DNA of 47,925 bases from Fibrobacter sp. (lineage in GTDB: Bacteria; Fibrobacterota; Fibrobacteria; Fibrobacterales; Fibrobacteraceae). Below are positions 1,993 to 14,260 of the stretch, in pieces. How positions within the stretch are numbered: the stretch's first letter is position 1; each line of letters starts with the position of its first letter. The stretch spans positions 1 to 47,925 of the forward strand of contig JAKSIF010000020.1 in the NCBI GenBank assembly GCA_024398965.1. The letters run 5' to 3'. The notes below the pieces were generated by a model. It was not told the DNA's origin and did not search any database. It saw only the letters and a program-made list of their open reading frames with translations. The translations under genes were made by a program, and so were the position numbers.

Positions 1993-2065
1993 TTTCAGTA
2001 ATTTTTCCCGATAATCCTCCCCCATTCCCTTGCCAATTTTTAGGGATATTCATAAATTTTGGCAC

Positions 2066-2125
2066 ATGAAGATGATTAACGTGCTTTGCGAAAACTTTGA
2101 CGGCCGATGGTGGCGCAGGCTCTAA
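2066..2125 (+). CDS. trpL: trp leader peptide with tandem Trp codons
   Basis: A 19-codon reading frame, MKMINVLCENFDGRWWRRL then TAA, lies upstream of trpB. Two adjacent TGG codons occupy 2108-2113, just before the 5' arm of the first attenuator hairpin, and the TAA (2123-2125) begins inside that arm. This is the geometry of a Trp-sensing leader: stalling at TGG covers segment 1 and frees segment 2, while termination at TAA covers segment 2. The start could also be ATG at 2072. No strong ribosome binding site is visible. A possible promoter is TTGCCA at 2030-2035 with TAAATT at 2053-2058. It is too short for ordinary gene callers. Confidence 0.82.
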   Translation: MKMINVLCENFDGRWWRRL

Positions 2126-2199
2126 CATAGAGTCTGGTTTTTGCAAGTATAGTTGATCAAGGCAAAAGGCTTCCAGACTCCCTGGAGGCTTTTATTTTT
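2116..2199 (+). terminator. trp attenuator (1:2, 2:3 and 3:4 hairpins)
   Basis: Three mutually exclusive structures can be drawn. Pause hairpin 1:2: CAGGCTCTA (2116-2124) with TAGAGTCTG (2128-2136), 9 pairs with one G-U. Antiterminator 2:3: GAGTCTGG (2130-2137) with CCAGACTC (2173-2180), 8 perfect pairs. Terminator 3:4: GCTTCCAG (2169-2176) with CTGGAGGC (2182-2189), 8 pairs, 5-base loop, followed by the T-rich run 2190-2199. With the Trp-Trp leader peptide this is a complete ribosome-mediated attenuator controlling trpBA. The pairings were found by hand. Confidence 0.85.
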
Positions 2200-2453: not shown

Positions 2454-3734
2454 ATGGCAAAATCTCTGGTAGAATCAGATAACGGCTTTTTCGACAAGTT
2501 CGGCGGCAAGTATGTAGCCGAAATCATCCGTCGCCCTCTGGACGATCTTGAAGAAGCCTTCAACAAGTACATCAAGGATCCGGAATTCCTGGAAGAATTG
2601 CGCATTATCCAGCGCGACTACATCGGCCGCGAAACTCCGCTGTACTATGCCCCTACCGCAACAGAACTTCTGGGCGGCGCACAGATCTACATCAAGCTGG
2701 AAGGTCTTGCAAACACAGGCGCCCACAAGATTAACAACGCCATCGGTCAGTGCCTCTTGGCAAAGAAGATGGGCAAAACCCGCATTATCGCAGAAACCGG
2801 CGCTGGTCAGCACGGTCTCGCCACGGCAGCGGCTTGCGCAAAACTTGGTCTTGAATGCATCGTTTACATGGGCGAAGTGGACGTTCGTCGTCAGCAGCCC
2901 AACGTTGCCACCATGGAACTTTACGGCGCCAAGGTGGTGCCTGTGACCAGCGGCAGCCGCACCTTGAAGGATGCGGTGAACGAAGCCATGCGCGACTGGG
3001 CAACCAACTTTGCCACCACCCACTACGTTCTGGGTTCCGCTCTCGGCCCCGCACCGTTCCCCGATATCGTCCGTACTTTCCAGAGCATCATCGGTGAAGA
3101 AGTAAAGCGCCAGGCTGCAGAACGCAACATCGACATTGCAGCCATCGTAGCTTGCGTAGGCGGCGGTTCCAACTCCATCGGCGTGTTCACTCCGTTTATC
3201 GAAAATCCGAACGTTCGTCTTATCGGCGCAGAAGCCGGTGGCGTAGGCCCGAAGCTGGGCGAAAACGCAGCCCGCATGGTGGGCAATGCCGCCAAGGTGG
3301 GCATCGTTCAGGGCTACAAGAGCAAGTTCCTGGTAGATGACGATGGTCAGTCCCAGCCCACCCGCTCCATTTCCGCAGGTCTCGACTACATGGGCATTGG
3401 CCCGCAGCTTGCAGCCCTCGGCGAATGTGGCCGCGTGGAATTCACCAGCATCCTGGACAAGGAAGCTTTGGAAGCCGTGAACTTCTTCGCCAAGAACGAA
3501 GGCATCCTCTTCGCTCTTGAAAGTTCCCACGCCGGTGCCGCCGCCATGAAGATAGCCAAGGAATTCCCCAAGGACAAGGCCATCATCATCAACATGAGTG
3601 GCCGCGGCGACAAGGACATCTTCATTACCAGTCCCGTGTTCCGCCCCGAAAAGTGGAAGGAATTCCTGGCCGCAGAACTGAAGCGTCTGAACAACAATGA
3701 AGACATCCACGACGCAGAGATTATGAATAAATAA
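2454..3734 (+). CDS. trpB: Tryptophan synthase beta chain
   Basis: Pyridoxal-phosphate enzyme that condenses indole with serine to give tryptophan, acting as an alpha2beta2 complex with TrpA. The N-terminal half has the signature LANTGAHKINNA with the PLP lysine at residue 92, followed by AETGAGQHG with the catalytic glutamate; the phosphate-binding loop CVGGGSNSIG and the terminal SGRGDKD are also present. The start is ATG 2454 (AAAGGA at 2442-2447); the frame is open further upstream but only through repeat DNA. At 426 residues it is slightly longer than the usual 395-410. trpA follows 34 bases later. No other trp genes are nearby, so the anthranilate branch must lie elsewhere. Confidence 0.97.
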   Translation: MAKSLVESDNGFFDKFGGKYVAEIIRRPLDDLEEAFNKYIKDPEFLEELRIIQRDYIGRETPLYYAPTATELLGGAQIYIKLEGLANTGAHKINNAIGQCLLAKKMGKTRIIAETGAGQHGLATAAACAKLGLECIVYMGEVDVRRQQPNVATMELYGAKVVPVTSGSRTLKDAVNEAMRDWATNFATTHYVLGSALGPAPFPDIVRTFQSIIGEEVKRQAAERNIDIAAIVACVGGGSNSIGVFTPFIENPNVRLIGAEAGGVGPKLGENAARMVGNAAKVGIVQGYKSKFLVDDDGQSQPTRSISAGLDYMGIGPQLAALGECGRVEFTSILDKEALEAVNFFAKNEGILFALESSHAGAAAMKIAKEFPKDKAIIINMSGRGDKDIFITSPVFRPEKWKEFLAAELKRLNNNEDIHDAEIMNK

Positions 3735-3768: not shown

Positions 3769-4512
3769 ATGAACGCACCTATCCGTTTAATGTCCCATTT
3801 GATTGCCGGTTTCCCTGATGGCGAAACTTCCGTGGCAATTGCAGACGCTCTCGTAAAGGGCGGCGCATCCATTCTCGAAATCCAGTTGGCCTTCAGCGAC
3901 CCCAGCGCCGACGGTCCTGCAATCCAGACGGCTTCTACCGTCGCTTTGGAAAAGGGCTACTCCACCAAGCAGGGTCTTGAAATCGTGAAGAAGATTCACG
4001 ACATGCACCCGGATACCCCCATCTACATCATGACCTACGGCTCCCTGGCATTTACTCCGGGCGTAGAAAACTTCGTGAAGATGTGCAAGGACGCAGGCGT
4101 CAGCGCTTGCATTATTCCGGACCTCCCCTTCGATAACGACGAAGGCCTTACCGCCGCTTGCGCAAAGTACGGTCTCGAAAACATTCCGGTGGCAGCTCCC
4201 AGCATGACCCAGAAGCGTCTCGAAGAAATGGCCTCCAAGGGATTCAAGTACATCTACGCAGCTCTGCGCGCAGGTACTACCGGTTCCCAGACGGTCATCG
4301 ACCAGGCAACTCTCGACTTCCTGGACACCGTGGGCAAGGGCGGCGCCAAGGTTCTTGGCGGTTTCGGTATTCGTACCGGCGAACAGTCTAAGGTTCTCTG
4401 CAAGCATGTGCATGCAGTGGTGGCAGGTTCCGTATTCGTGAACATCATGCTGAAGGACCCGAAGGACACCGCAGGCGTGGAAGCCAAGGCCCGCGAACTT
4501 TCTGGCCTGTAA
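3769..4512 (+). CDS. trpA: Tryptophan synthase alpha chain
   Basis: TIM-barrel enzyme that cleaves indole-3-glycerol phosphate and passes indole to TrpB. The catalytic acids sit in LEIQLAFSDPSADGPAIQ: Glu37 and Asp48, equivalent to Glu49 and Asp60 of the Salmonella enzyme. The phosphate-binding motifs AALRAGTTGS and GGFGIRT are present, and the C-terminal AVVAGSVFV matches the family. At 247 residues it is about 20 shorter than usual, missing mainly the N-terminal extension. ATG 3769 has an AAAAAGG site upstream. It is the last gene of the attenuated trpBA unit. Confidence 0.96.
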   Translation: MNAPIRLMSHLIAGFPDGETSVAIADALVKGGASILEIQLAFSDPSADGPAIQTASTVALEKGYSTKQGLEIVKKIHDMHPDTPIYIMTYGSLAFTPGVENFVKMCKDAGVSACIIPDLPFDNDEGLTAACAKYGLENIPVAAPSMTQKRLEEMASKGFKYIYAALRAGTTGSQTVIDQATLDFLDTVGKGGAKVLGGFGIRTGEQSKVLCKHVHAVVAGSVFVNIMLKDPKDTAGVEAKARELSGL

Positions 4513-12547: not shown

Positions 12548-14260
12548 ATGTACAAGATTTCCAGAAAAGATTACGCTCAAATGTACGGTCCCACCGTAGG
12601 CGACCGCATCCGTCTTGCAGATACCTCCCTTATTGTAGAAGTAGAAAAGGATTATTGTGTTTACGGTGACGAAGCCAAATTCGGTGGCGGAAAATCATTG
12701 CGAGATGGCATGGGCCAGGCAGCGCCCTTTAAGGATGACGAATGCCTAGACACTGTCATTACAAGCGCGCTTGTCATTGACGCCACTGGAATTTTCAAGG
12801 CCGACATAGGCATTAAGGACGGAAAAATTGCTGGCATCGGAAAAGCCGGCAACCCCCACATGATGGATGGCGTTACCCCAGGCATGATCATCGGCAGTTC
12901 CACCGAAGCCATTGCTGGCGAAGGCCTGATCTTGACTGCCGGCGGTATCGACACCCACATTCACTTTATCTCTCCCACACAAGTTCGCACAGCTCTTTAT
13001 AGCGGCGTCACCACCATGATTGGTGGCGGCACAGGCCCTGCTGACGGGACCAACGCTACCACTTGTACGCCCGGCGCATTCAACATTCACAAGATGCTGG
13101 AAGCAGCAGAAGATTTGCCTGTCAACTTAGCCTTCCTCGGCAAGGGAAATGGATCCTGTGCTGAAACCTTGAGAGAACAGGTGCGTGCAGGAGCTGCAGG
13201 CCTGAAACTTCACGAAGACTGGGGTTCCACTCCCAAGGCTATTGACACTTGCCTAGGCGTCGCGGATGAATTCGACGTCCAGGTTTCCATCCACACGGAT
13301 ACATTAAACGAAGGCGGCTTCGTAGAAGATACCATCTCAGCCTTTAAGGGACGCACCATCCACACCTACCATACGGAAGGTGCTGGCGGTGGACACGCTC
13401 CCGACATCATTCGCGCAGCCGCCTTCGAAAATGTCTTGCCTTCTTCAACAAATCCGACAATGCCCTTCACCAGAAATACCATTGACGAGCATCTGGACAT
13501 GTTGATGGTTTGCCACCATCTGGACAAGAACAATAAAGAAGATGTGGCTTTTGCGGATTCAAGAATTCGTCCGGAAACCATCGCCGCCGAAGACATTCTT
13601 CACGACATGGGAATTTTCTCCATGATGAGTTCTGATTCCCAGGCCATGGGGCGCGTGGGTGAAGTCATTACCCGCACTTGGCAAACCGCCGATAAGATGA
13701 AAAAACAGCGCGGCACTCTCGAAACAGACTGCGAACGCAACGACAACAACCGCATCAAGCGTTACATTGCCAAGTATACCATCAACCCGGCCATTACCCA
13801 CGGCATTTCAAAGTACGTTGGTTCCGTAGAGGTTGGCAAAATCGCAGACCTTGTCCTTTGGCGTCCCGACATGTTCGGAGCCAAGCCCGAAATGATCCTG
13901 AAGAATGGTTTTATTTGCGCATCCAAAATGGGCGATGCCAATGCCAGCATTCCCACCCCAGAGCCAGTTGTGTATACCGATATGTTCGGTGCCCACGGCA
14001 AGGCTTTAGCAAAAACCTGCATCACCTTCGTTTCGGAATACGCTTTCGCAAATGGCATCAAGGAAGAACTGGGCCTCGAAAGAACGGTCCTCCCCGTAAG
14101 CAACTGTCGAAACATCGGCAAGAAGGATATGGTTCACAACGACCGCATCGCAAAGCTGGAAGTAGATCCAGAAACCTACACTGTAAAGGTGGATGGTGAA
14201 CGAATCACTTGCGAAGCCGCCACAGAACTTTCTCTTGCAAGAAGGTACTTCCTTTTCTAA
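12548..14260 (+). CDS. ureC: Urease alpha subunit (catalytic)
   Basis: The 570-residue nickel enzyme that hydrolyses urea to ammonia and carbamate. Nickel ligands are visible: His137 and His139 in GGIDTHIHF, the carbamylated Lys220 in GLKLHEDWG with His222 beside it, and histidines in [10 protein letters not shown] and [15 protein letters not shown]. The flap Cys and catalytic His lie in LMVCHHLD. Length equals the family norm. ATG 12548 is chosen because it gives the standard [20 protein letters not shown]-terminus; an upstream in-frame ATG (12509) lies within ureAB. The window has no nickel importer, so nickel uptake is encoded elsewhere. Confidence 0.98.

Follow-up and report, generated by a model that had tools for sequence, protein, structure and literature searches.

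Sequence analysis of a 47,925-nucleotide stretch of Fibrobacter sp. DNA (hereafter, the window) indicates that its trpBA genes would be controlled by a ribosome-mediated transcription attenuator, a reading to which we assign a probability of about 0.93. Transcription of this element is predicted to begin on, or immediately beside, the start codon of its leader ORF, and an additional helix, 0:2', would make termination the default outcome when the leader is not translated. The mechanism itself is classical ribosome-mediated attenuation. The first-pass annotation had recognized a leader peptide with two adjacent Trp codons (TGG TGG, 2108-2113), a stop codon (TAA, 2123-2125) lying inside segment 1 (2116-2124) and three alternative hairpins, 1:2, 2:3 and 3:4; all of these are found where it had placed them (Table 1).

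Table 1. Elements of the trpBA attenuator and the genes downstream of it, in window coordinates
Feature	Position	Strand	Basis or role
Promoter	-35 TTGCCA 2030-2035, 17-nt spacer, -10 TAAATT 2053-2058	+	Consensus scan; near-invariance in relatives
Leader ORF MKMINVLCENFDGRWWRRL	2066-2125 (stop TAA 2123-2125)	+	Sequence reading; WW/WWW retained at 50 loci
Segment 0 (5' part of leader ORF)	2073-2096	+	Pairs with 2' in untranslated RNA
Control codons TGG TGG	2108-2113	+	TGG codons invariant among relatives
Segment 1	2116-2124	+	Pairs with 2128-2136 (1:2, 9 pairs)
Segment 2	2128-2137	+	Pairing in 1:2 and 2:3
Segment 2'	2137-2159	+	Partner of segment 0 in untranslated RNA; its first bases, 2138-2144, join 2162-2168 in the antiterminator
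Antiterminator, 3' side	2162-2180	+	Partners: 2138-2144 for 2162-2168, and 2130-2137 for segment 3 proper (2173-2180, CCAGACTC)
Intrinsic terminator 3:4 and U tract	2165-2199	+	2165-2176/2182-2193, 12 pairs
trpB, tryptophan synthase beta subunit	2454-3734	+	TIGR00263, 545 bits; ATG 2454, AAAGGA upstream
trpA, tryptophan synthase alpha subunit	3769-4512	+	TIGR00262, 182 bits

The promoter and the leader ORF

A consensus scan returned 2030-2058 as the only sigma-70-like promoter of the region, and the terminator was found independently. When 44 distinct trpB leader sequences were aligned on the leader ATG, two near-invariant blocks, CCTTGCCA and TTCCTAAATT, became apparent in the promoter region, and the variable positions -7 to -2 contained no Shine-Dalgarno motif. 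In these leaders the -10 element ends 7 nt before the ATG at a fixed spacing, which is also observed in a genus related to Fibrobacter (g4) and upstream of trpE in several other genera. Because of this short and fixed distance, the trpBA leader mRNA is probably leaderless and starts at the leader ATG, with the transcription start predicted at or beside 2066 in the window; we infer both the start site and the translation of the leader ORF from the sequence. A search for the combined promoter and ATG pattern gave 7 matches in the genome of the window and 0 in a reversed control, the matches including trpB, trpE, a thiD-like gene and leuA.

The attenuator, trpB and trpA lie on the same strand, with the attenuator upstream, and the identity of both genes was established with NCBIfam equivalog models. 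Several other features of the neighborhood were recorded. A HigBA-like toxin-antitoxin pair is located directly upstream of the attenuator (682-1992), and its antitoxin gene (TIGR02607) carries a peptidase-like C-terminal extension with a HELAH motif. The stretch between the attenuator and trpB is highly different among species; in the window it contains three tandem 40-nt repeats (TCCACTCAGGATGACACTCT...) that reach the trpB start (2335-2454). Further away, on the minus strand, 12698-12992 strongly matches the Rfam model 5_ureB_sRNA, with 127.7 bits, perhaps only because this model overlaps the ureB coding sequence.

Conservation of the trpB leaders

In Fibrobacter and its near relatives, 50 trpB loci were found to have a leader with WW or WWW. 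The Fibrobacter trpB leaders comprise 44 distinct sequences, each of which retains WW or WWW together with the three helices, and the helices show compensatory changes. Leaders of the F. succinogenes type encode MKMNSAIRFNRWWWGSTK or a close variant, with three Trp codons, and those of the window's clade encode MKMINVLCENFDGRWWRRL or a close variant. Across 22 distinct 18-aa ORFs the three TGG codons are constant and most other codons are variable. The related genus g4 carries a MKNVKNNNRWWRRA or MQNVKSINRWWWRT leader in 6/6 cases. Among the Fibrobacter trpB genes with sufficient upstream sequence a single one is devoid of a leader, that of G017, where trpF runs straight into trpB.

This conservation decides against the hairpin being a mere terminator of the upstream higBA-like genes, next to a WW ORF that arose by chance. 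Such an arrangement would fit the fact that the annotated same-strand ORF ends at 1992, some 170 nt upstream of the terminator; however, that gene is separated from the terminator by a conserved promoter, the WW/WWW codons, the ORF and the three helices are kept at trpB despite differing upstream neighbors, and an equivalent unit of ORF, helices and terminator also precedes trpE. As a full explanation the plain terminator is refuted by conservation, and we consider it highly improbable. The same low credence is given to the sensing of tryptophan at the leader by a TRAP protein or a T-box. Both are established regulators of trp genes by attenuation in Firmicutes, but a TRAP family gene was detected in 0/21 Fibrobacter genomes with a search that was positive for the Bacillus subtilis control, no T-box matched the window at gathering or relaxed thresholds, and neither system explains the conserved TGG codons; the two readings were rejected on these grounds.

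Outside this group, no WW or WxW leader was present in the 700 nt upstream of about 27 Treponema trpB genes, whose proteins are 75-80% identical, and searches beyond Fibrobacter and Treponema gave only isolated chance ORFs. As a separate observation, TrpB is 75-80% identical to its rumen Treponema counterparts versus about 50-58% to those of other Fibrobacterota classes, so a transfer of trpB between the Fibrobacter and rumen Treponema groups is probable.

Pairing, covariation and folding of the leader RNA

The three helices had been described as having 8 or 9 base pairs each, which is correct for 1:2 (2116-2124/2128-2136, 9 pairs, -11.6 kcal/mol) and 2:3 (2130-2137/2173-2180, 8 pairs, -11.3 kcal/mol) and not for 3:4, where 12 pairs are formed (2165-2176/2182-2193, -16.8 kcal/mol) and followed by ATTTTTC. 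The covariation across relatives that the first-pass annotation had asked for was analyzed in a segment-wise alignment of 23 distinct trpB and trpE leaders. This was used in place of RNAalifold on mixed trpB/trpE leaders, which gave a poor 1:2 because MAFFT had misaligned segment 1. The paired cells amounted to 94.0% for 1:2, 92.9% for 2:3 and 94.6% for 3:4, and sliding the partner by 1-3 columns reduced these values to 6-69%. Compensatory changes exist in every helix: cells changed on both sides numbered 7 (1:2), 6 (2:3) and 23 (3:4), more than in any of 500 shuffles, although the independent events behind these counts are few and some segment registers were picked by pairing. The most telling position is a G in segment 3 whose partners in segments 2 and 4 are both C; in the window's clade the three positions have jointly become A, U and U.

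The leader RNA (2066-2161) folds at -36.5 kcal/mol, 5.6 standard deviations under dinucleotide shuffles, with 0/200 shuffles as good. In the growing chain of the window, 2:3 is the best fold once segment 3 has emerged (position 2181, -16.6), and the terminator becomes the better fold only from 2190. At equilibrium 3:4 is favored over 2:3 by 3.9 kcal/mol; therefore, the antiterminated state must be kinetic, as it is in the textbook model of attenuation. Folding was also carried out with a ribosome whose downstream edge was placed 12 nt past the first base of the A-site codon. With the ribosome on the last Trp codon and the RNA made up to segment 3, helix 2:3 was obtained in 44/44 trpB and 18/18 trpE leaders; with the ribosome on the stop codon or absent, 3:4 was obtained in all 44 and all 18, respectively. 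From the first base of the last TGG it is 15-17 nt to the start of segment 2, and from that of the stop codon 0-5 nt.

Conservation, covariation and ribosome-position folding together strongly support the proposal that stalling at the Trp codons would lead to antitermination and release at the stop codon to termination. Transcription would begin on, or immediately beside, the A of the leader ATG, so that hardly any 5' UTR would precede the codon at which the ribosome initiates. When Trp-tRNA is ample, the ribosome would reach the stop codon and cover segment 2, blocking 2:3 and allowing 3:4 to form, upon which RNA polymerase would terminate near 2199. When Trp-tRNA is scarce, the ribosome would stall at TGG TGG and cover segment 1, and 2:3, extended by 2138-2144/2162-2168, would form before segment 4 is made, with read-through into trpBA. 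We infer this response to tryptophan from the sequence.

In the stretch 2176-2242 of the window, beyond the terminator, 2215-2229 is complementary to segment 4, and 2211-2219 and 2231-2242 to segment 1; CCTCC(A/G)GG occurs at the equivalent place after other trpB leaders of the window's clade and after trpE leaders. These stretches could restructure the read-through mRNA.

An extra helix at the start of the leader ORF

In addition to the three canonical helices, segment 0, in the 5' portion of the leader ORF, can pair with 2', a segment located right after segment 2, and the resulting helix encloses the Trp codons and 1:2. In a swap test with 20 trpB and trpE leaders from Fibrobacter, six other genera (g2-g6 and g10) and a sister family (f2), the leaders' own pairs had a mean of -12.9 kcal/mol versus -8.6 for swapped ones, and 0/5000 permutations were as low. 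Within this set two leaders (L087 and L241) gave no signal and many single leaders were not significant. On this comparison of sequences, 0:2' is conserved via pairing and not via sequence. Segment 2' has an alternative partner in the bases immediately preceding segment 3, a pairing that extends the antiterminator. In our reading, 0:2' would ensure termination of a leader that no ribosome translates: without translation, 0:2' and 1:2 would build one long hairpin, leaving 3:4 free to form and to end transcription by default.

A different reason for the maintenance of 0:2' would be a second role besides the one in cis, with the roughly 130-nt product of termination persisting as a stable small RNA that has targets in trans. 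This possibility, which we regard as unlikely, finds a precedent in rnTrpL and peTrpL of S. meliloti (PMC7298713) and would be in line with the long stable fold (z -5.6) and with a related element that many F. succinogenes-type genomes carry between trpCF and trpBA, complete with promoter and terminator; against it, a covariance model of the leaders found no third copy in the window's own genome.

That related element is structured, has no Trp codons (L286-L292, L297 and L298; for example, G008:C9:36966-37073, minus strand) and has a TTGACA/TATATT promoter. It is placed after trpCF, and its distance to the downstream trpBA ranges from 80 nt to 3 kb; one genome (G006) has two copies. An Rfam scan of the element returned nothing significant, and the attenuator may have given rise to it as a small-RNA gene.

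The trpE attenuator and the origin of the two copies

The initial suggestion that attenuation precedes trpBA alone, and not trpE, has to be abandoned. Although trpE lies outside the window, it has its own paralogous attenuator in the same genome (G000:C18:1601-1793, minus strand), with the leader MKMIYALTVAFDGRWWRGL and a similar promoter and terminator, and a trpE leader is present in 19/20 other Fibrobacter genomes, G032 being the one without it. Across 25 Fibrobacter genomes, the covariance model recovered leaders at trpB and at trpE. In G032 and G045, trpE is directly downstream of trpA and no trpE leader is found. In three genera (g2, g5 and g6), trpE and trpB share a strand and trpE is the upstream gene, at a distance of about 4.4 kb, with a WWW leader at trpE and none at trpB. 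Leaders at trpE also occur in g3, g4, g8, g9, g10 and the sister family f2, and none was found in four g7 genomes; candidate WW leaders were noted in G061 and G063, which are more distant. The simplest reading would be that the ancestral attenuator was located at trpE and that the second one was acquired when trpBA became a separate unit in the common ancestor of Fibrobacter and g4.

The trpE leader of one genome (L255, G053:C1:224400-225500) encodes MKMINVLCKNFDGRWWRRL, which resembles the trpB leader of the window's clade and not the trpE leader of the window's genome, so gene conversion between its two attenuators is possible.

Other amino acid biosynthesis genes were inspected as well. Upstream of leuA, a 2-isopropylmalate synthase-like gene (L147/L154, G000:C7:44726-46264; L155-L168), there is a Leu-rich leader, MKKILDLRLLLCIALCDTEARF in the window's genome, with the promoter spacing of the trp leaders and a conserved terminator, and similar leaders precede leuA in the other Fibrobacter genomes examined for this gene. 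The motif GAAGCG/GGAGCG within the leuA leader ORF matches the 5' arm of the terminator, and both change together between species. No HH or FF leaders were found upstream of hisG or pheA (PDT) in 9 genomes each.

Relation to known attenuators

The Fibrobacter element shares with the E. coli trp attenuator (Rfam RF00513, Trp_leader) the short ORF with adjacent Trp codons, the mutually exclusive 1:2, 2:3 and 3:4 pairings, the intrinsic terminator and the trp genes downstream. It differs in that it controls trpBA and, via a second copy, the trpE unit, and in its probably leaderless start, the extra 0:2' helix, the leader sequence and the phylum. RF00513 gave no match in the window at the gathering score or at a relaxed E-value, and no Rfam leader family reached threshold. 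Leaders with more than four segments exist in the enteric his operon, where the stems of untranslated RNA include the leader ORF and are arranged in series (A:B, C:D, E:F); in Fibrobacter, 0:2' instead encloses the control codons and 1:2. In S. meliloti, trp genes are also distributed among several transcription units, and the 5' end of the attenuator RNA, rnTrpL, is the ATG of trpL, a start that is known there and predicted here (PMC7298713). There, the attenuator is found ahead of trpE(G) and reaches trpDC in trans through its RNA, whereas in Fibrobacter each of two units has its own attenuator (PMC7298713). Leader-peptide attenuators of Actinobacteria (PMC1262725), a different phylum, likewise combine amino acid leader peptides and alternative hairpins outside Proteobacteria. 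According to a survey from 2010, such systems were unknown beyond Proteobacteria and Actinobacteria, with the exception of a his case in Firmicutes (PMC2965389). No paper on a Fibrobacter attenuator was found in the open-access literature, and another survey from 2010, by Lopatovskaya et al. (cited in PMC4833913), may list further phyla.

What separates this attenuator from known ones is its phylum, the lack of an Rfam match, the probable leaderless start, the 0:2' stem and the presence of one attenuator per trp transcription unit. A wider proposal is that Fibrobacterota possess a class of attenuator of their own, leaderless and with five segments, where pairing of the ORF start with the region after segment 2 makes untranslated RNA terminate by default; that the RNA so terminated persists as a stable small RNA; and that in F. 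succinogenes-type species a copy of it has turned into an independent RNA gene located between trpCF and trpBA. We put it forward as tentative, with odds well short of even. For this group, a major rumen fiber degrader, the attenuator tracks the splitting and fusion of operons, the inner leader being missing where trpB follows trpF or trpE follows trpA, and it probably depends on leaderless translation and bears an extra alternative helix.
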